Positions 1-9,848 of a DNA stretch of 64,000 nt are shown here, piece by piece. Location of the stretch: contig JAMWZY010000011.1 of assembly GCA_024281825.1 (NCBI GenBank), forward strand, positions 1 through 64,000. Reading direction: 5' to 3'. The translations under genes were made by a program, and so were the position numbers. The DNA comes from Nitrosomonas sp. (GTDB lineage: Bacteria; Pseudomonadota; Gammaproteobacteria; Burkholderiales; Nitrosomonadaceae). How positions within the stretch are numbered: the stretch's first letter is position 1; each line of letters opens with the position of its first letter. The notes beneath the pieces were generated by a model. The model was given only the letters and a program-made list of their open reading frames with translations, had not been told where the DNA came from and made no database searches.

Positions 1-1055
1 GTTGCTAAACTACGAAGCCGCCGCCAGCCATAACGTGACTGTCAGGATCACCGATTCCGGCGGATTGACCTATGATGAAACCTTCACCATCAATCTAAAC
101 AATGCTAACGAAATCCCCACCGATTTAAGCTTGACGATTAACATCGTCGCGGAGAATGCGGCGAACGGAACCTTTGTTGGCACGATCTTCGGAACCGACC
201 CGGACAGTGGGGATACCAAGACCTATAGCTTCACCGATAGTGCCGGAGGTCGGTTCGCCATTGACAGCTTGACGGGGCAAATCACCGTAGCGAATGGCAG
301 TTTGCTGGATTATGAAGCAGCCGCCAGCCATAGCGTTACCATCAGGGTTACCGATTCCGGCGGATTGACCTACGATGAGACCTTCACCATCAATCTGATC
401 AATATTAACGAACCCCCCACCGGGGCCGATGCTACTGTTACGATCAACGAAGATGCCTCCCATACGGCCACCGCGGCAAACTTCGGTTTTAGCGATGTCG
501 ATGCGGGCGACAGTTTGAGTGCCGTACGCATCGACACGCTGCCCGGCGCCGGAAGCCTCACTCTCTCGGGCGTGGCGGTGACCGCGGGACAGGTCATCAC
601 TGTGGCTGACATTACCGCCGGCAACTTGGTCTTTACTCCTGTGGCTGGTGCAAACGGAACAGGGTACGCCAGTTTCACGTTCTCTGTCCGCGACAGCAAC
701 AACACCTATGATGCCGCACCGAACACCCTCACCGTCAATGTGACCGCGCAGAACGACGCGCCAACCGACCTGGCGCTCTCGGCAAATACGGTGGCTGAGA
801 ACGCCGCCAACGGCACCTCGGTAGGTACGGTCAGCGCTACCGACCCCGATAGCGGCGATACCAAGGCCTATAGCCTCACCGACACCGCCGGTGGGCGCTT
901 CGCCATCGATAGCAATACTGGCGAGATTACTGTCGCCAATGGCTCGTTGCTAAACTACGAAGCCGCCACCAGCCATAACGTGACCGTCAGGATCACCGAT
1001 TCTGGCGGATTGACCTATGATGAGACCTTCACGATCAACCTAAACAGTGCTAACG
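1..1055 (+). repeat. Tandem cadherin-module DNA repeats inside the adhesin gene
   Basis: The same module end (LNYEAA..SH.VT then DSGGLTYDETFTINL) is encoded at about 2-110, 302-410 and 947-1055, giving offsets of 300 and 645 bp. Copy 1 and copy 3 are nearly identical at the DNA level. The front halves of the modules at about 115-300 and 760-945 also align. The block is GC-richer than the sequence after about 1055. Confidence 0.85.
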
Positions 1056-2335
1056 AAACTCCAATCAATATAGTGCCCGGTTCCCAGATTGTTAACAGGA
1101 ACACGCCATTGACTCTTGGAGGAATATTTGTTTCTGATGCAAATGATGACCTCAATACGGTGCGCTTAATAGTTGAGCATGGTACGTTAAAAGTTACATT
1201 ATCAGGTACCACCAATATTAGCGCAGGAAGTAACGGTACAAGCTCTCTGACTTTGTCAGGCAGTCTAACGGATATCAATGCGACCTTAGCGAGTTTAATC
1301 TATCAAGGCAACTACAATTACATTGGAATTGATACTTTAAATGTCGTCAGTAGCGATAGTAATTCTGCGCAAGACATTGATACTGTGGTTATTAATGTTG
1401 TATACGACAATAGCCTTCCTGTTGGCTTAAACGATAGTTATACGTTATTGCAGGACTCTATATTTTCCGTAGAAGCGCCTGGACTACTCATCAATGATAG
1501 TGACGCCGACAACAATGAGCTATCAATTATTCCAATGAGTAACCCCGAAAATGGAGCGCTGGTAATTAATTCCGATGGCAGCTTTATTTATACACCCAAC
1601 AAAGATTTTGTCGGAGTAGATTCGTTCACATATGTTGTCCATGATGGTTATGGAGATTCTTCGCCTGTTACCGTAATGTTAATCGTGAATCCGCTGGTGG
1701 TTCCACTACCAGAAACGCCCTCATCGCTCATTGTACCGATAACGCTGCCTTCGACGGCACTAGCGCCAATAACAGATTTATTCCATCCATCAATCCAAGG
1801 AACAATACCATTTATAGCATCTACAACTGTATTGCCAGCAATACAGAACTTACTTGAACCAACTTCTCCCATCATTTCAGAAAATACAGCTGAAAATGCT
1901 AGATTAGCGCTTCAGCCTACAAGGTTACTGCAGGATCATGACAATAGTCATTTGCCGGAGCATTGGCAAGAAATCAATAGCCATATCTCACACGCTTTGC
2001 TTACACAAAATACGGTAATCGCCAATCAACAATTATGGGAAGAAGTTGAAAATATACGGATAGACATCCAAAAAGCATTCGATGAAAAAGAATTAACTGC
2101 AAATGTCGCATCTGTTGCAGGCATCTCATTGACCGCAGGTATCGTAGGATGGCTAATACGATCAGGCTCGATATTAGCGAGCCTCTTAAGCATCATTCCT
2201 GCGTGGAAGAGCGTGGATCCTCTTTCTATAGTCATTGCAAAATCAGATAAGGATACTCATGAAAGCTTAGAGGATGACGATGATACAAAACAAAAAGAAA
2301 ATTCTGCTGAAAAACTTTTTTATCCGGATAAATAA
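2..2335 (+). CDS. Giant cadherin-repeat surface protein, C-terminal part (5' end outside window)
   Basis: The reading frame is open at the left edge, so this is the last 777 residues of a longer protein. The visible order is: the end of one cadherin-type module, a full module at about residues 36-137, a different beta-sandwich module at about 139-250, another cadherin module at about 252-350 and two further Ig/cadherin-like modules at about 355-560. The last of these has the usual NDSDADN calcium-type motif. A Pro/Ile/Thr-rich linker and a charged helical stretch follow (about 640-700), then a hydrophobic hairpin at about 702-742 and an acidic tail with a DDDD run. Tandem cadherin/VCBS-like modules are typical of secreted adhesins. 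The membrane-type C-terminus differs from a normal type I secretion signal. The downstream adaptor and protease genes lie in the same direction only 10-60 bp apart, which suggests an operon. Substrate and ligand are unknown. Confidence 0.8.
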   Translation: MLNYEAAASHNVTVRITDSGGLTYDETFTINLNNANEIPTDLSLTINIVAENAANGTFVGTIFGTDPDSGDTKTYSFTDSAGGRFAIDSLTGQITVANGSLLDYEAAASHSVTIRVTDSGGLTYDETFTINLININEPPTGADATVTINEDASHTATAANFGFSDVDAGDSLSAVRIDTLPGAGSLTLSGVAVTAGQVITVADITAGNLVFTPVAGANGTGYASFTFSVRDSNNTYDAAPNTLTVNVTAQNDAPTDLALSANTVAENAANGTSVGTVSATDPDSGDTKAYSLTDTAGGRFAIDSNTGEITVANGSLLNYEAATSHNVTVRITDSGGLTYDETFTINLNSANETPINIVPGSQIVNRNTPLTLGGIFVSDANDDLNTVRLIVEHGTLKVTLSGTTNISAGSNGTSSLTLSGSLTDINATLASLIYQGNYNYIGIDTLNVVSSDSNSAQDIDTVVINVVYDNSLPVGLNDSYTLLQDSIFSVEAPGLLINDSDADNNELSIIPMSNPENGALVINSDGSFIYTPNKDFVGVDSFTYVVHDGYGDSSPVTVMLIVNPLVVPLPETPSSLIVPITLPSTALAPITDLFHPSIQGTIPFIASTTVLPAIQNLLEPTSPIISENTAENARLALQPTRLLQDHDNSHLPEHWQEINSHISHALLTQNTVIANQQLWEEVENIRIDIQKAFDEKELTANVASVAGISLTAGIVGWLIRSGSILASLLSIIPAWKSVDPLSIVIAKSDKDTHESLEDDDDTKQKENSAEKLFYPDK

Positions 2336-2345
2336 TTAATTAAAC

Positions 2346-5300
2346 ATGTTTACACTGCGGTTGCGACCATACGTTCGACTTAGCTTAGGATTAATTGCAT
2401 TAATCCTAAGTATTTTGTTGATTGGTCAATCACTTGGCATTGTTCCTGATAAATCGCACTCTCTTTTAGAAAACCGGAAAAATATAACAGAGATTCTTGC
2501 CGTGCAGTTTGCGCTAGCAGCAGAAAAAAATGATTTCATCCAGATAGAAAAAACTTTGAGCGTTCTAGTAAATCGTAATTTAGATATTCTTTCAGGCGCC
2601 ATCCGAAAAAGTGATGGCGTGCTTTTTGCAGTTGCAGGCGCTCATGATGAGCATTGGCAAGCTAATGAAAATGGCACTCCATCTTTGACACATATCCAGG
2701 TTCCTATCTTGCAAGGTGATCAAATATGGGGAATCGTTGAAATAAGCTTTTCACCTCTGCTTGGTAATAACCTATTGGATGAAATAAAAAACTCATTTTG
2801 GGGCTTTATGCTGTTTGTTACCGCATTTGGTTTGTTGGGCTACTTATTAATGCTGAAACGCGCCTTAAAAGAACTGGATCCCTCAGGAGTTGTCCCGCAA
2901 CGAATTAAATCTGCCTTTGATACGTTAACCGAAGGCATACTGATCCTTGATGAACAAGGACGGATTCTATTAGCAAACAATGCATTCAGCCAAAAAGTTG
3001 AACTACCATCCGATAGCCTAATTGGTCAAGAGGTTTCAAAACTAAATTGGGAAAAATCTTCAATTGAACAATTGAAAGAAGGTTGGCTTTATCCCTGGTC
3101 CGAATCTCTTGAAAAGAGAAAAATACAAACACGTATACGGTTAGGTTTTAATTCAACTCGGCAGGATAAAAACATTTTTATGATTAATAGTTCGCCAATT
3201 CTGGGCAATGACAATCAGTGTAAAGGCGCATTAGTTACTTTTGATGATGTTACAGAAATCGAAGAAAACAATCTCAAGCTTGATTTAATGTTAAAAAATC
3301 TAGAATCATCAAGGAACGAGATATCGCGCCAAAATAATGAATTAAAAAAATTAGCGGAAATCGATCCGCTCACTGGTTTTTACAATCGACGAGCATTGAC
3401 TTTCTATTTCAACGAAGCCTTTGACTTGTCACGTGAGCAAAGTAGCAATCTTATCTGCATTATGCTCGATATCGATCATTTTAAATCTGTAAATGATAAT
3501 TATGGGCATCAGGTTGGCGATGAAATCATTAAATTGGTTACTACTATTTCCAGAGAAAGTTTACGAGATACAGATATTGTAGGTCGATATGGAGGGGAAG
3601 AATTCTGCCTTGTACTGCCAAGCATTGATATTGAGATCGCTTTGAAAATTGCTGAACGCATTCGTACCAATATAATGAATACTACTACTTACCATGCTTT
3701 TGGAATTGAACGAGTCACTATTAGTTTAGGAATTTCCTCGATAACCGATGGCGCACAAAACACCAATGAAATGATCGACTTGGCAGATAAGGCTCTTTAT
3801 TATTCTAAGAAAAATGGCCGTAACCGCGCTACTGTGTGGAAAGATATTGCACAGCAGGATAGCAACGCTAATGCAGCAGACAATATCGACAAAAATGATA
3901 CCTCAATAACTATGGTTAATGATACGACCAACATCAACATTGATCAGCTAATCGGAAAAATCAAAGAATTAGAACAGTTAAATGAAAAACAACAAAAATT
4001 GATTGAGCATCATATAAATTATGACTCTGGAACCGGCCTCCTGAATCGTTTCGGTTTACAAGAGCGACTTAAAACCGCAATCTCCTATGCTGCCAGATCA
4101 GATTGCTATGTAGCCATCCTCTCCCTTTCATTAAATAGCTATAAACGTGTTTATAATACTTTAGGTTATGAGGCAGCAGAAAAATTCATCGTCGATGCCT
4201 CTCGCAGAATAAGTAGTATTTTGCGCACAACAGATGCCATATCCTCTGAAACCGGAACCACAAACCTCGATTCCATGCTATCGAGAAAAAATGAAAATGG
4301 TTTTTACATTTTACTTTCTGAATTAAAGAAAAACGAACCTATAGCACAGATTATTAACCGTATTTATTTCGCGTTAAATCAAGCTTTAATTGTTGATGGC
4401 TTTAACATAAACACTGACAGTGCCATTGGCGTTAGTATCTATCCAATTGATGATCTGACCCCTATTAATTTACTGAATTATGCTGACTTAGCGTTGAATA
4501 ATGCTGAATCTAGCGGCATAGGAATATGTCAATTCTATTCAAAAGAGATGAACCACCAGTATTTGTCAGAAATACAGCTTGAATCAGATCTGATACATGC
4601 TATTGAACTGAACCAATTCGAAATTTTTTATCAACCCATCGTTGGCATTAAACATAGCATGATCAACAAATTTGAGGCCCTGCTGCGTTGGCACCATCCT
4701 GAAAAAGGAATCATAACAGCAGCAGGCTTTATTGATGTCGCCGAACGAAGTGGCTTGATCCTGCATATTGGTGATTGGGTTCTTCGTGAAGCAATCAGAC
4801 AACTTGCTATTTGGCGCAAAGAAGTATCAGATGAAGTACAAATAGCAGTAAATATATCAGCAGCACAGCTACAATTTGAAGATTTGACCGAGAAAATACT
4901 CAGCTATTTACGTGAATATGAAGTACCACCCAAGAATTTAGTGCTTGAAATTACTGAAAGCATGATTATGCAATCAATCGAAGGCTCAACACAGATTTTG
5001 AATAAACTTCACGACATGGGAGTTCAAATTGCACTTGATGATTTTGGTATGGGGTATGCATCATTTCAGTATTTACAGAAATTTCCTATCGATATCGTCA
5101 AAATAGATCGCTCGTTTATCAGTGACATTGATGAAAACAGCAGTAACAACGCGATTGTTTTAGCAATCATCGAAATGTCGAAAAAAATGGGAATGATTGT
5201 TGTAGCTGAAGGAGTAGAAAATGAAAAACAATTTAAACATTTATGCAAATTAAAATGCGATGAAGCTCAAGGTTACCTACTTGGACATCCTATGCCTAAA

Positions 5301-5372
5301 GAACACGCCTATAACGCCCTTAAACGACTTAATCTAGCGACAGAGAAGCAACTTATTGTCGTTAATCAGTGA
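2346..5372 (+). CDS. Membrane PAS-GGDEF-(degenerate GGDEF)-EAL protein
   Basis: The 1008-residue protein has membrane segments at about residues 12-34 and 150-170 that flank a small periplasmic sensor region. A PAS-like domain follows (about 190-310), then a coiled stretch and a GGDEF domain with an intact GGEEF signature at residues 416-420, so cyclic-di-GMP synthesis is possible. A second GGDEF-fold segment at about 555-730 lacks the signature and looks inactive. The C-terminal EAL domain (about 745-1000) keeps EAL at 777-779, NIS, ITES, DDFG and the VAEGVE motif, so it should be able to hydrolyse c-di-GMP. The gene starts 10 bp after the adhesin gene and is very probably co-transcribed with it. 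It may set local c-di-GMP for adhesin display. The net direction of activity cannot be read from sequence. Confidence 0.88.
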   Translation: MFTLRLRPYVRLSLGLIALILSILLIGQSLGIVPDKSHSLLENRKNITEILAVQFALAAEKNDFIQIEKTLSVLVNRNLDILSGAIRKSDGVLFAVAGAHDEHWQANENGTPSLTHIQVPILQGDQIWGIVEISFSPLLGNNLLDEIKNSFWGFMLFVTAFGLLGYLLMLKRALKELDPSGVVPQRIKSAFDTLTEGILILDEQGRILLANNAFSQKVELPSDSLIGQEVSKLNWEKSSIEQLKEGWLYPWSESLEKRKIQTRIRLGFNSTRQDKNIFMINSSPILGNDNQCKGALVTFDDVTEIEENNLKLDLMLKNLESSRNEISRQNNELKKLAEIDPLTGFYNRRALTFYFNEAFDLSREQSSNLICIMLDIDHFKSVNDNYGHQVGDEIIKLVTTISRESLRDTDIVGRYGGEEFCLVLPSIDIEIALKIAERIRTNIMNTTTYHAFGIERVTISLGISSITDGAQNTNEMIDLADKALYYSKKNGRNRATVWKDIAQQDSNANAADNIDKNDTSITMVNDTTNINIDQLIGKIKELEQLNEKQQKLIEHHINYDSGTGLLNRFGLQERLKTAISYAARSDCYVAILSLSLNSYKRVYNTLGYEAAEKFIVDASRRISSILRTTDAISSETGTTNLDSMLSRKNENGFYILLSELKKNEPIAQIINRIYFALNQALIVDGFNINTDSAIGVSIYPIDDLTPINLLNYADLALNNAESSGIGICQFYSKEMNHQYLSEIQLESDLIHAIELNQFEIFYQPIVGIKHSMINKFEALLRWHHPEKGIITAAGFIDVAERSGLILHIGDWVLREAIRQLAIWRKEVSDEVQIAVNISAAQLQFEDLTEKILSYLREYEVPPKNLVLEITESMIMQSIEGSTQILNKLHDMGVQIALDDFGMGYASFQYLQKFPIDIVKIDRSFISDIDENSSNNAIVLAIIEMSKKMGMIVVAEGVENEKQFKHLCKLKCDEAQGYLLGHPMPKEHAYNALKRLNLATEKQLIVVNQ

Positions 5373-5479
5373 GATTTCTTTGACTTAATATGTTATAAAC
5401 GCATGGCGTTGAATTAGAATTCTTCGACTCATTGCTTTCATCGTACATCTTTACTAATTCTATTAAGAGCCGAGATCAA

Positions 5480-6301
5480 ATGAGAGTTTCTAGCTATATT
5501 GGGTTCATTTTTGTGTTTTCTGTTTCATGCCACATGACAAATAGCTACGCTGAATCTACTGAACCCAAGGCTGCTTCTGTCTTGAATTCTATAGAAAAGC
5601 AAGCTAAAGAGAAGCCTACCTCCCCTTCCGCTGCAACGACGAAAATCCGAGGCTTGGTTAAGCCATTACGTGAAGCTGTGCTATCAACCGATGTAATCGC
5701 TAAAATTACGCATATTAATGTCAAAGAAGGAGATCCTTTTAAGCAAGGAGAAAGATTAGTACAGTTTGAATGTAGCCGACAAAGAGCGCAGCTAAAAGCA
5801 GCGGAAGCTGAAGTTTTAGCCAAAAAAATGGTTTCCGAGAATAACGAAAGTCTGTCGGCATTTAATGCCGTCGGCTCGCTTGAACTGGAAGTATCCAAAG
5901 TTCAGTTGGATAAGGCCATGGCAGAATTGGAAGCAATCAAAATTGGCAATTACTTCATTTGCTCTTTTAGAGCGCCTTGGGATGGACGAGTTACTGAGAT
6001 TAAAGCAAACGCACATGAAGTGATTGAACCAGGTCGTGAAATCATGAAAATCTTGGATGACAAAAATCTTGAGGTTGAAATGATAGTTCCATCCGGTTGG
6101 CTAAAATGGATAAAACCGGGCATCAATATTTCCATGGTAATCGATGAAACAGGAAAAAATTATGATCTTGAAATATCCAGAGTTGGAGCTCGCGTTGATC
6201 CTGTTTCTCAAACCATACGTATCTTTTCAAGTTTTAAAAGTGATGCGACGGATGTTTTGGCTGGAATGAGCGGATCCGTTATTATTAATCTCCCAGATTA
6301 A
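5480..6301 (+). CDS. Periplasmic adaptor (HlyD/RND membrane-fusion protein family)
   Basis: The start is placed at the ATG at 5480, because the product then opens with a plausible signal peptide (about residues 1-24, SYA cleavage site). The longer reading from 5432 adds residues unlike a signal sequence. The 273-residue protein has the split biotinyl-lipoyl halves (around VKEGDPFKQGERL and the later FRAPWDGRVTEI) that bracket a short coiled-coil hairpin, followed by a beta-barrel region. This is the layout of periplasmic adaptors that link an inner-membrane pump to an outer-membrane channel. No pump or TolC-like gene is adjacent inside the window. The next two genes also encode adaptor domains, so the three products may assemble together around export of the upstream adhesin. 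Confidence 0.82.
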   Translation: MRVSSYIGFIFVFSVSCHMTNSYAESTEPKAASVLNSIEKQAKEKPTSPSAATTKIRGLVKPLREAVLSTDVIAKITHINVKEGDPFKQGERLVQFECSRQRAQLKAAEAEVLAKKMVSENNESLSAFNAVGSLELEVSKVQLDKAMAELEAIKIGNYFICSFRAPWDGRVTEIKANAHEVIEPGREIMKILDDKNLEVEMIVPSGWLKWIKPGINISMVIDETGKNYDLEISRVGARVDPVSQTIRIFSSFKSDATDVLAGMSGSVIINLPD

Positions 6302-6338
6302 TGTTGATCTAGAAAGAACACATAAGGATCAATGTGTC

Positions 6339-7691
6339 ATGAATGAAAGGAAAGAGTTTCCAGAGGAAAATAAGGCAACTTTAATCCTACTTCAGTTAGA
6401 AGCAGACGCGCGTAACGCAGAAGACTTATTGGCACTACATTACCTTATTGTCAATGAAACACGGCGTTTACTAAAATATCGGCATGCAACACTCTTAAAA
6501 GCTGTTGGGCAAATAAACTCTAGTTTCCAAGTAATCAGAACATCCGGCCTTACCGTAATTGATCGTTCAATTCCCAAGAACCAATTGATTGAACGCATCA
6601 TTCATCACCAAAGAAAAGAATCTTCAAATGACCAGCCCTTTCCAGTCATTTTTGAACAGCTCCCAAATGAATTACAACAAGATTGTCAGAGCTTATTGTT
6701 ACCATTCCCTGTTTGGGTTGGCATGCGATTGCCAAGTGGCACATTAATAGGTGCTTTATGGCTTGAAAGGGAAACCGCGTGGAGTAATAACGAACTATTC
6801 TTGATGAAACGACTGGCCGATACTTATGCACATGCTTGGGGCTATTTTGATAAACATCGGCAATTAAAAATATGGCTAGTTTCTAGAAAAACTCGATGGG
6901 TAATTGGGATCATGACAATGATCTTGTTTTTTCTACCCATCCAACACTCAACTCTGGGATCCGTTAAAGTCATTGCCAAAGATCCATTGATTGTGAGTGC
7001 GCCTATCGACGGAGTAATCGCATCCATACCCGTTGAGCCTAATCAACTGATCTCTCAAGGACAAACATTATTCAATTATGAAGATACAAGCTACAGAAAT
7101 GAATATGTGATTGCTCAGCAATCCCTAGCTGTCGCCGAAGCCGAATTGAAGAAAGCAACTCAAAGTGCATTCCAAGATGAAAAAAGTAAGGCGGAAGTTG
7201 CCTTATTAAAAACAAAAGTTGAATTAGCTAATATCAAGAGAGATTACGCCAAAGAAATGCTTGATCACCTTAATGTGATCGCAGATAGAGATGGATTTTT
7301 GTTATTGGGTGATAAGCTAGAATTAATTGGGAAGCCAGTGATTGTTGGTGAAAGACTTATGGAAATCGCAGAAACGGGTAAGTTTATGTTTCGTATTGAT
7401 TTACCCGTTGAAAATAACATTGAATTTTCTATAGGAACTCGGGTAAAAATATACCTGAATATTGACCCGCTTAAGTCAATCAGCGCAGAAGTTACTAATA
7501 TTGGTTTTCGTGCCGAGGTAGTGCCAGGAGATATTCTGGCTTACCGAATCGATGCAGAAACAACAGAGACAACCGATCATCTTAGAATTGGTTGGCAAGG
7601 TACAGCTAAAATATATGGTAATTCGGTTAATTTATTTTTTTATCTTTTCCGTCGACCTCTTGCGGCCGCTCGCCAATATTTAGATTTTTAA
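6339..7691 (+). CDS. GAF-like domain fused to membrane-anchored HlyD-type adaptor
   Basis: This 450-residue protein begins with about 170 residues predicted to be cytoplasmic that look like a GAF fold. They comprise an N-terminal helix, a central strand-rich part and a final segment reading GALWLERE then helix. A single membrane segment follows at about 186-203, then the periplasmic part. That part has the lipoyl halves (SAPIDGVIASIPVEPNQLI and, after a coiled coil, VIADRDGFLLL) and a C-terminal beta-barrel region. HlyD proteins usually have only a short cytoplasmic tail, so the sensory-type domain is unusual. The gene lies 37 bp after the previous adaptor gene and 39 bp before the protease fusion. 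The likely role is an adaptor whose state responds to a cytoplasmic signal. The ligand is unknown. Confidence 0.78.
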   Translation: MNERKEFPEENKATLILLQLEADARNAEDLLALHYLIVNETRRLLKYRHATLLKAVGQINSSFQVIRTSGLTVIDRSIPKNQLIERIIHHQRKESSNDQPFPVIFEQLPNELQQDCQSLLLPFPVWVGMRLPSGTLIGALWLERETAWSNNELFLMKRLADTYAHAWGYFDKHRQLKIWLVSRKTRWVIGIMTMILFFLPIQHSTLGSVKVIAKDPLIVSAPIDGVIASIPVEPNQLISQGQTLFNYEDTSYRNEYVIAQQSLAVAEAELKKATQSAFQDEKSKAEVALLKTKVELANIKRDYAKEMLDHLNVIADRDGFLLLGDKLELIGKPVIVGERLMEIAETGKFMFRIDLPVENNIEFSIGTRVKIYLNIDPLKSISAEVTNIGFRAEVVPGDILAYRIDAETTETTDHLRIGWQGTAKIYGNSVNLFFYLFRRPLAAARQYLDF

Positions 7692-7730
7692 ATTAAGAGA
7701 TTGGCATGATGCTCTGGCACAAAAGAAAAC

Positions 7731-9848
7731 ATGTCTTCAAATAATATTCACCCCTTACCTTCATTACGAAGCGATTTACATTTCTTAAAAGCACCTAATG
7801 CTCACGATGGATCAACCACGTGGACTTTATATGATCCTGTAAATAATCGTTTTTACCGGATAAGCATCTTGATTCACCACATACTGAGCAGATGGTCAAT
7901 CAATGATAGCCAACAGATAATAGATCAGATCGCCAATGAAACTGTTTTTAAACCGACACAAGGAGATGTAGCAACTCTGATTAACTTCCTGCAGCACAAC
8001 CAATTAACGAATCAATCCCACACTCGGCCAGCCTCTGAATATTTAGTGCAACATAGGAAGGCTCATGCAAATTTCTGGGAAAAAATAGCCCATCAATATT
8101 TGTTTTTTCGCATTCCTCTTTTTCAACCTGATGCGTTTCTGAATCGAACGTATCCTTTTATCAAGCAATTCTTTTCTGTTACTTTCCTAAGTTTTGCCAT
8201 TCTGATCTGCATAACGGGCTTATACCTGGTTTCACGTCAATGGGACGTGTTTGCGAACACATTCCTTCATTTTTTTTCGTTGCAAGGCATTCTAGTTTAT
8301 GCAATTGCGTTAATAGGTGTAAAGACTATTCACGAACTTGGGCATATATATACAGCGAAGCATTATGGTTGTCATGTGCCTAGTATGGGGTTAGCCTTTA
8401 TGGTTATGGTGCCAATGATCTATAGCGATATGTCGGATACTTGGCGACTATACTCAAAAAAACAACGAATACATGTAGCCGCGGCTGGGATTTTGAATGA
8501 ACTGTTGATGGCTGGTATTTGTTTATTTATTTGGGCATTTTTACCCGAAGGGATATTGCGTAGCGTTTGTTTTGTAATTGCGACTACCAGTCTAATTAGT
8601 AGCCTGCTGATCAATATCACACCTTTTATGCGTTTCGATGGTTACTACATTTTGTCTGACTGGTGGGGCATCGACAATTTGCAGCAACGATCATTTCTAT
8701 TAGCAAAATGGAAATTGCGCCAACTACTATTTGGATCCGTCGAAGAAAAACCAGAGCATTTTTCTCCTGAAATAGAATTTAAATTGATTGGCTATGCATG
8801 GTTTACCTGGCTTTATCGTTTGATTCTATTCATTGGAATTGCTCTACTGGTTTATCATTTATTTTTCAAAATATTAGGCATTATTCTATTTGCAGTGGAG
8901 ATAGTTGCACTGATTCTTGTTCCTCTTTTTAAAGAATTCAGGCATTGGTGGATGCTAAGAAATAGCATCCAATTAAATAATCGGCTACGAATATGGATGC
9001 TTATTTTAATAAGTTCTATAAGCCTCTTATTTATCCCCTGGAATTCACATATTTATATTCCTGGAGTACTAACCTCAGCAAACTACAGTACGATTTTCAC
9101 ACCTGAATCCGCTCAAATTGTTTCTATTGAGATCCAAACAGGACAAAAAGTAGACAAGAATCAGGTCCTGATAGTACTAAAATCACAGAAGCTCGACGTA
9201 GAAATAGAACTTACGCGCAAGCAACTCGAAATGCTAGAGCTGCGCGCTACAAGAGCAGTAGTCAGTCGTCAAGAGCAAGATAATTTACAGGTAATACTAG
9301 AAGAAATTGCATCAGAATCCAGCAAGCTGGAGGGATTGGAGAAACAGCAGAAAAAACTTAGCCTACGCGCACCATTTTCCGGTGTCATCACAGAAATGGA
9401 TGAAACACTGCACGTGTCTCGTTGGGTTAAAAGTGCCACGCCTCTCTTTTCTATTATGGACTCGAACACTTCTGAAATCAGAGGCGTTGTCTCTGAATAT
9501 GAACTGAATCGAATTGAGCCAGGGCAACAAGCTTCATTCTATCCCGAGGATATTCAATTACCCAAACTAACGGCCTCCATTGATAGAATCGACAAAAGCG
9601 AAATCAGGAGCCTTGATTTGAGCTATCTAATTTCAAACTATGGCGGAAGTGTAGCTACTCGGAACAGCAAGAATGGTACATTTGTGCCGGAGGCAACAAT
9701 TTACGCCGTCTACTTAAATAATGTTTCCTCCTCAGTTCCACAAAAAGAAATCAAGGGAAATATCTTTATTTCAGGCACTCCCATTTCACTCGCAACGAGA
9801 ATCTATGAAATGATCACATCTGTTTTTATACGAGAAAGCGGCTTTTAA
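7731..9848 (+). CDS. PqqD/RRE-like domain + M50 site-2 protease + HlyD adaptor fusion
   Basis: The protein has 705 residues in three parts. Residues about 10-105 resemble the PqqD/RiPP-recognition winged helix (WTLYDP then an FYRIS strand, helices, and FLQHNQL at the end). Residues about 140-435 are a polytopic M50 metalloprotease with the zinc motif HELGH at 201-205 and the partner motif NITP..RFDG, whose aspartate is residue 303. Residues about 440-690 form an HlyD-type lipoyl/coiled-coil/barrel adaptor (RAPFSGVITEM is the second lipoyl half). Related proteins are often labelled peptide zinc metalloprotease. It is the last gene of the adhesin-linked run. The neighbouring adhesin ends in a membrane hairpin, so that hairpin is an obvious candidate substrate. 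This is inference. Confidence 0.82.
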   Translation: MSSNNIHPLPSLRSDLHFLKAPNAHDGSTTWTLYDPVNNRFYRISILIHHILSRWSINDSQQIIDQIANETVFKPTQGDVATLINFLQHNQLTNQSHTRPASEYLVQHRKAHANFWEKIAHQYLFFRIPLFQPDAFLNRTYPFIKQFFSVTFLSFAILICITGLYLVSRQWDVFANTFLHFFSLQGILVYAIALIGVKTIHELGHIYTAKHYGCHVPSMGLAFMVMVPMIYSDMSDTWRLYSKKQRIHVAAAGILNELLMAGICLFIWAFLPEGILRSVCFVIATTSLISSLLINITPFMRFDGYYILSDWWGIDNLQQRSFLLAKWKLRQLLFGSVEEKPEHFSPEIEFKLIGYAWFTWLYRLILFIGIALLVYHLFFKILGIILFAVEIVALILVPLFKEFRHWWMLRNSIQLNNRLRIWMLILISSISLLFIPWNSHIYIPGVLTSANYSTIFTPESAQIVSIEIQTGQKVDKNQVLIVLKSQKLDVEIELTRKQLEMLELRATRAVVSRQEQDNLQVILEEIASESSKLEGLEKQQKKLSLRAPFSGVITEMDETLHVSRWVKSATPLFSIMDSNTSEIRGVVSEYELNRIEPGQQASFYPEDIQLPKLTASIDRIDKSEIRSLDLSYLISNYGGSVATRNSKNGTFVPEATIYAVYLNNVSSSVPQKEIKGNIFISGTPISLATRIYEMITSVFIRESGF

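Follow-up and report, generated by a model that had tools for sequence, protein, structure and literature searches.

How might a very large adhesin be exported, held at the cell surface and read by the cell when the genes that follow it encode a cyclic di-GMP (c-di-GMP) enzyme, periplasmic adaptors and a membrane protease? This question is raised by a 64,000-nucleotide stretch of a Nitrosomonas sp. genome (C19:1-64000, in an assembly of 2.57 Mb and 19 contigs), called the window throughout, which opens with a run of five plus-strand open reading frames (ORFs) at 2-2335, 2346-5372, 5432-6301, 6339-7691 and 7731-9848. With a chance somewhat better than even, these genes form the rear half of a system dedicated to the export, display and sensing of a single giant adhesin. 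As a conserved variant of adaptor/channel-based adhesin display, it has a branch linked to SecA and a module in which adhesin and sensor are inherited together. Its features in the window are as follows (TM, transmembrane; aa, amino acids).

1..2335, plus strand: 777-aa C-terminal part of a giant adhesin with cadherin/Big_9 repeats (ORF map, Pfam), the front of which is probably L019:6414-19586 on contig C16
2003..2332, plus strand: conserved C-terminal domain of the adhesin with a membrane hairpin, hydrophobic core at about 2093-2218 (alignment, hydropathy)
2346..5372, plus strand: sensor-PAS-GGDEF-(degenerate GGDEF)-EAL enzyme (Pfam, motifs)
2346..2900, plus strand: N-terminal two-TM periplasmic sensor domain of this enzyme, with no confident Pfam family and co-occurring with the hairpin (profile, hydropathy)
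5432..6301, perhaps from ATG 5480, plus strand: small periplasmic adaptor of the MFP/HlyD family (ORF map, Pfam)
6339..7691, plus strand: GAF-like / TM / adaptor (HlyD_3) fusion (Pfam, hydropathy)
7731..9848, plus strand: fusion of an M50 (site-2 type) membrane protease with an adaptor domain; HExxH lies at 8331-8345 and the adaptor part at about 9033-9794 (Pfam, structure model)

The gaps between the five ORFs are 10, 59, 37 and 39 bp, the second of which widens to 107 bp if the third gene begins at the in-frame ATG 5480, which precedes a stretch resembling, by eye, a signal peptide. An earlier interpretation of the window, made from its letters only (the sequence-only reading), had described five same-strand genes separated by 10 to about 110 bp, and this description holds, with ATG 5480 accounting for the upper figure. 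The domains that it had named are likewise recovered by Pfam, namely cadherin/Big_9 repeats, PAS-GGDEF-EAL and HlyD-type adaptor domains in three proteins, one of which is fused to Peptidase_M50; all three adaptor proteins fall under the TIGR01843 type_I_hlyD cut-off. Two of its finer labels fare less well. 'GAF-like' is weak, as Pfam GAF matches 6/14 aligned members at E up to 1 (best 2.7e-6) and the window member has no match, and so is 'RRE-like', for which PqqD matches one of 30 members (E 0.015); the structure model shows three strands followed by three helices in this region, a pattern known from PqqD.

The adhesin ORF is incomplete because the first base of the window is the start of contig C19 and falls within the repeats. 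The end of contig C16 interrupts a gene whose repeats match those of the window adhesin, and the front half is probably located there, adjoining C19, an adjacency suggested by relatives for two contigs that are not joined. At this C16 locus (L019), a 504-aa OEP-family channel gene (TolC/OprM-type, E 2.7e-37) lies directly upstream of the front of the giant gene, which has a GTG start at L019:6414. In the close relative G057, the channel and adhesin genes stand on a single contig ahead of the same gene run, and G054 has the same order with an adhesin complete at 3293 aa. The impression that the system lacks a TolC-like channel is thereby corrected, and the 16 kb upstream of the adhesin start contain this channel gene and no type I exporter with lapD/lapG. 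G066 encodes a complete 4358-aa adhesin bearing both an N-terminal LEPR motif and the hairpin, and its gene order differs, with the adaptors and M50 first, then the channel, adhesin and sensor enzyme (L098:3-18411); the gene set is thus kept without a fixed order.

The set is not confined to a few close relatives. M50-adaptor genes are present in 12/85 same-genus genomes and in 56/370 sampled class genomes (E <= 1e-30), and the recurrent set comprises the channel, a giant LEPR/DUF4347 protein, the small adaptor, the GAF-adaptor and the M50-adaptor. Surroundings were fetched for 52 of 69 M50 places, which, together with named and same-genus loci, gave 63 ORF-mapped regions. Eight of these show no M50 ORF in the map, and the other 55 are an uneven sample. 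In these 55, the GAF-adaptor is found in 44 (directly upstream of the M50-adaptor in 41), the small adaptor in 39, a LEPR giant ORF in 20, the channel in 14, the sensor in 13 and a SecA-like gene directly downstream in 15, all lower bounds because many regions stop at contig ends. It should be noted that a mechanical ORF map may miss a gene covered by a longer opposite frame, as happened for G381 and G351, and that the M50-adaptor and short-SecA searches scored at most three candidates per genome, leaving absences soft. A contig profile scan returned three Nitrosomonas relatives and one match over residues 453-601 only.

The arrangement recurs with different downstream genes in L015, L016 and other genera and is therefore not due to chance. 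That unrelated envelope genes simply happen to cluster in Nitrosomonas, which the origin of all domains in known families would allow, is scarcely credible, since content and often order are conserved in distant genera with different flanks and the comparative data already contradict it; chance clustering was ruled out by the recurrence of the gene set in other genera and mapped regions. The conserved neighbourhood on which the sequence-only reading had hinged is hence real, as is seen in the 41/55 regions where the GAF-adaptor directly precedes the M50-adaptor. In a tree of 55 M50 sequences, two clades of 27 and 28 are resolved; all 15 genes with a SecA-like gene directly downstream fall in one of them, and Nitrosomonas falls in the other.

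Likewise, an ATP-binding cassette (ABC) exporter with TM and ATPase parts was found in 0/63 ORF-mapped regions (1.15 Mb total; five ATPase-only ORFs), and lapG (Peptidase_C93) in 0/85 same-genus genomes, with a positive Caulobacter control. The absence of both had been remarked from the window and now extends to relatives, and together with the conserved neighbourhood it supports the proposal of a dedicated display system. The LapA/BpfA type I adhesins are similar in combining a giant repeat adhesin, an outer-membrane channel, an HlyD-type adaptor and a nearby c-di-GMP enzyme; in contrast, the present system has neither the ABC exporter nor LapG in the regions and genomes just given, and possesses a C-terminal membrane hairpin and an M50-adaptor fusion. 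Unlike LapD, the window enzyme has intact GGEEF/EAL motifs and scores 181.4 bits against a LapD cut-off of 1020. LapD/LapG control was rejected on this low score and the lack of lapG in the 85 genomes.

What, then, accompanies the adhesin most closely? Its end is hydrophobic (best 19-aa mean 1.81) and conserved, with R, S, P and DPL invariant in 9 aligned copies, which bears out the membrane hairpin read from the window. Pfam gives no confident family for this domain, which is also found outside Nitrosomonas, and there are no RTX family matches in the window part of the adhesin, the C-terminus being the hairpin and a charged tail. The adjoining enzyme carries GGEEF with an upstream RxxD, EALLR, DDFG and EGVE motifs, and its first 185 residues, the sensor, recur with other outputs, including cyclase only, cyclase-phosphodiesterase and kinase-receiver-Hpt. 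The hairpin and sensor searches drew 291 genomes, as against 370 for the M50-adaptor, DUF4347 and short SecA searches. The sensor was found in 18/291 and the hairpin in 17/291, with both in 17 and all 18 M50-positive. The two profiles include 8 of the 17 overlap genomes; when the genomes feeding either profile are excluded, the sensor is present in 9/9 hairpin genomes (Fisher 3.5e-16; like every Fisher value given here, this takes the genomes to be independent, although they are not). In 15/17 genomes the coordinates place the two matches within about 0.7 kb of each other; in G254 the sensor gene is at the opposite end of the adhesin gene, and in G366 it is about 10 kb from the hairpin, beyond the M50 and SecA-like genes. 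The pair accompanies M50-adaptors of either clade, those of the second clade in Nitrosomonas alone (clade labels being assigned by genome), and thus behaves as a module separable from the exporter type. The genomic companion of the hairpin is the signalling gene, not the M50-adaptor.

It is rather unlikely that the sensor enzyme reports only export stress or the periplasmic state, with the hairpin link reflecting the co-inheritance of a gene pair. The weak matches of 2/13 sensor domains to a single-Cache family (Pfam, best 2.8e-4) would suggest small-molecule sensing, and the outputs vary (GGDEF, GGDEF-EAL, kinase-Hpt). However, the sensor is present in 17/17 hairpin genomes, across two M50 clades and these different outputs, and G254 and G366 keep both partners despite their unusual order. 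In G154 and G357, a receiver-GGDEF-EAL protein is encoded beside the sensor kinase and SecA-like genes (L120:3910-5748, by Pfam; L122:10285-12114, by eye), so that phosphorelay and c-di-GMP outputs meet in one cluster.

The M50-adaptor, whose M50 domain exceeds the Pfam cut-off in the window protein, is predicted to be a site-2-type membrane protease in its M50 part, with HExxH and the distal Asp motif placed in membrane helices. H201, E202, H205, N295 and D303 are kept in 55/55 M50 parts, and the adaptor part is MacA-like in the structure model. Site-2 proteases cut membrane helices, and the sequence-only reading had hinted that this one acts on the hairpin. A release switch of this kind, in which M50 cleavage of the hairpin sheds the adhesin at low c-di-GMP and functionally replaces LapG/LapD, would fit the invariant catalytic residues, the adjoining c-di-GMP enzyme and the missing lapG of the genus, yet it is improbable. 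The M50-adaptor is commoner than the hairpin (56/370 versus 17/291), it occurs where the giant protein has no hairpin match, and the GAF-adaptor and M50-adaptor stand together in many regions where no sensor is seen. The co-occurrence that the sequence-only reading had proposed to search for is one-sided, the hairpin genomes being M50-positive and the M50-adaptor far more widespread; of its suggestion of a different export or release route, the dedicated display is supported and the action of M50 on the hairpin is not. A hairpin-specific M50 protease was rejected on these counts and on the giant proteins at M50 loci such as those of G282, G186, G441 and G414a, which lack a hairpin match at their visible ends.

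The M50-adaptor gene has another recurrent neighbour. In three initial loci, a protein of roughly 650 aa with SecA_DEAD, P-loop and preprotein-binding domains is encoded directly after it. A profile of 12 such sequences, chosen beside M50 genes, was run over the 370 class genomes and gave 23 loci at or above 654 bits in 22 genomes, the next match being a 901-aa frame at 638 bits, which fits a housekeeping SecA. The M50-adaptor is present in every one of the 22 genomes; leaving aside the 12 that contributed sequences to the profile, the other 10 provide a fair test and are M50-positive without exception (Fisher 3e-10). The match lies within about 1 kb of an M50-adaptor match at 20/23 loci (8/11 outside the profile), and the remaining three are located 15.6 kb away on the same contig (one) or on other contigs (two). 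Compared with the SecA of the Nitrosomonas genome studied, the family does not cover residues 701-900, a part that in SecA holds the two-helix finger and wing, and retains the ATP-site residues. Two members scored below every SecA and SecA2 cut-off, and in a tree of 19/23 short loci, 8 further relatives and 11/14 fetched housekeeping SecA loci, the short proteins and these relatives separate from the housekeeping SecAs with support 1.0. The genome itself has a single SecA_DEAD match, in a protein of 910 aa that exceeds the cut-off for housekeeping SecA. A dedicated SecA in Nitrosomonas was rejected, as above 27 bits a second SecA-like match occurs only in G005 (two frames) and a contig-end fragment only in G020, both of which are without an M50-adaptor match.

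The accessory Sec (SecA2) system for giant adhesins of Gram-positive bacteria offers a parallel in that clade A relatives pair a dedicated SecA-family ATPase with a giant surface protein. It differs from the present one, which belongs to a Gram-negative envelope, has M50-adaptor and channel partners and, in the genome studied, shows no short SecA-like gene; moreover, as noted, the two short proteins scored fall under all SecA/SecA2 cut-offs and the family lacks the 701-900 part.

At its N-terminus, the adhesin has a candidate LEPR-type motif followed by a DUF4347 domain, the model of which has a clan CD (caspase/CHAT-like) fold. For LEPR-XLL (NF012209), the adhesin of this genome scores 12.5 bits against a cut-off of 17, and two clade A relatives score 35.9 and 25.5 bits. 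In the DUF4347 alignment, H168 and C212, the putative catalytic His/Cys dyad of this clan, are nearly invariant, both being lost in G414a. DUF4347 was ruled out as a specific marker of the system by the DUF4347 genomes without an M50-adaptor match (11/52) and by two RTX-like DUF4347 proteins in this very genome. These two, L093:6694-10641 (C3) and L094:8263-11396 (C7), show neither a hairpin match nor, in the ORFs listed, a LEPR motif; the C7 copy has its front part in another frame, outside the LEPR reading.

Taken together, these components suggest a mechanism. The C16 channel and the three adaptor proteins would form an envelope-spanning conduit, in which the M50-adaptor fusion would take the inner-membrane place held by the ABC transporter in type I secretion. 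SecA-family motors push substrates N-terminus first, and a Sec-type motor may supply the energy: in one branch the short SecA-like ATPase dedicated to the system, in Nitrosomonas the sole SecA. The adhesin would be exported N-terminus first, with the LEPR-type motif and DUF4347 leading. Given this direction, an N-terminal motif and a C-terminal hairpin, the hairpin would arrive last in the inner membrane, next to the sensor, and would stop there, leaving the adhesin anchored with its repeats projecting outside. The hairpin might then contact the two-TM sensor of the GGDEF/EAL enzyme, coupling the state of the adhesin to c-di-GMP, and hairpin and sensor are proposed to travel together because N-first export parks the one beside the other. 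Under the same model, the M50-adaptor would go with the LEPR substrate rather than the hairpin, as it is present also without hairpins, and the LEPR region that the substrates share at their N-termini is a likelier target of the M50 protease than the hairpin. A bolder extension, put forward tentatively and with less than an even chance, is an undescribed Gram-negative secretion class, in which a Sec-type motor (the short SecA in clade A, the housekeeping SecA elsewhere) would feed giant LEPR proteins N-first into a conduit made of the M50-adaptor fusion, the GAF-adaptor, the small adaptor and the TolC-like channel. In a sub-branch, the substrate would itself be an outside-in receptor, its final hairpin resting in the inner membrane and switching a co-evolved c-di-GMP cyclase or histidine kinase.

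Several observations weigh against a dedicated export-display-sensing system. Neither SecA_DEAD nor short-SecA profile searches found a short SecA-like gene in the genome studied, so the motor there is extrapolated from the sister clade. The adhesin does not begin with a classical signal peptide (G054 copy, best 19-aa hydropathy 0.61). DUF4347 has no match in 15/56 M50 genomes, besides the converse 11/52, and the genome studied encodes the two further DUF4347 proteins, with RTX-like repeats by eye, but has only one hairpin match in all. G318 has the sensor without a hairpin match, and G390 has the sensor and is among neither the sensor nor the hairpin matches of the 291-genome searches, so it was probably not drawn. 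When the M50-adaptor model was searched against PDB folds, residues 435-688 took up the matches, with the protease and N-terminal parts barely covered. Finally, a PrtD-type ABC exporter is over the cut-off elsewhere in 11/12 M50-positive Nitrosomonas genomes and could serve in trans.

This last point underlies the strongest rival, which is nonetheless unlikely: a PrtD-type exporter encoded elsewhere would drive the adhesin through the channel and adaptors of the locus, with the M50-adaptor as an accessory adaptor or processing enzyme. Besides its frequency in the genus, the PrtD-type ATPase/permease of the genome studied scores 771.5 bits (cut-off 510.15) and is followed by an ORF that is HlyD-like by eye, and the channel and adaptors of the locus resemble type I parts; it is possible that the C3 and C7 DUF4347 proteins are substrates of this exporter. 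Type I substrates have a C-terminal secretion signal, usually after RTX repeats. The window part of the adhesin gives no RTX family match and finishes with the membrane hairpin and charged tail, though by its sequence it may still hold a secretion signal. In addition, none of the 63 mapped regions has an ABC exporter, a channel and three adaptors are encoded at the locus itself, and in the sister clade a SecA-like ATPase gene adjoins that of the M50-adaptor.

Further observations concern the loci themselves. On C16, the channel and adhesin genes are immediately preceded by a gene like those for methyl-accepting chemotaxis proteins and by a large CheA-like gene in which Hpt matches twice (L018:7830-14591), and G057 and G054 have similarly sized genes at this position; these are perhaps a surface-sensing chemosensory pair. 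Frame breaks occur in relatives (L016:3806-4402; L044:4372-17170): in G044, the adhesin end is in another frame, and in G061 the adhesin and M50 genes are split, through either assembly error or decay. In G174, a TpsB/TpsA-like pair (ShlB, TPS domains) stands just before the GAF-adaptor, M50-adaptor and SecA-like genes (L072:387-11510). In the window, Rfam and tRNA searches gave 0 matches each, promoter-like sites are below the shuffle mean and terminator-like sites near it, and there are two short tandem repeats.

Two other known systems share parts of this set. One is the Daptide/YydH-type HExxH membrane proteases of peptide natural products, to which the M50 part is related by a match to NF041824 at 153.4 bits; the match is under the 300-bit cut-off, and the window protease differs in being fused to an adaptor domain and encoded next to a giant adhesin. 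BapP of Pseudoalteromonas tunicata is a large cadherin-like/BIg adhesin encoded beside an adaptor-containing exporter (PMC12153261). Its cluster encodes ABC and LolD-like components, and M50 goes unmentioned in the main text of that paper. The combination of a giant adhesin, an M50-based conduit and an anchor-paired signalling enzyme appears to be undescribed in the open-access literature searched, subscription papers and preprints being outside its scope.

For the question of how Gram-negative bacteria sense the engagement of surface adhesins, an adhesin ending in a hairpin and co-inherited with one input domain, whether on cyclases, cyclase-phosphodiesterases or kinases, offers a testable physical link from the surface to c-di-GMP. 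The linkage between the SecA-like and M50-adaptor genes points to a widespread export route for very large proteins without an adjoining ABC transporter, and in ammonia oxidisers the system may bear on aggregation and biofilm formation.

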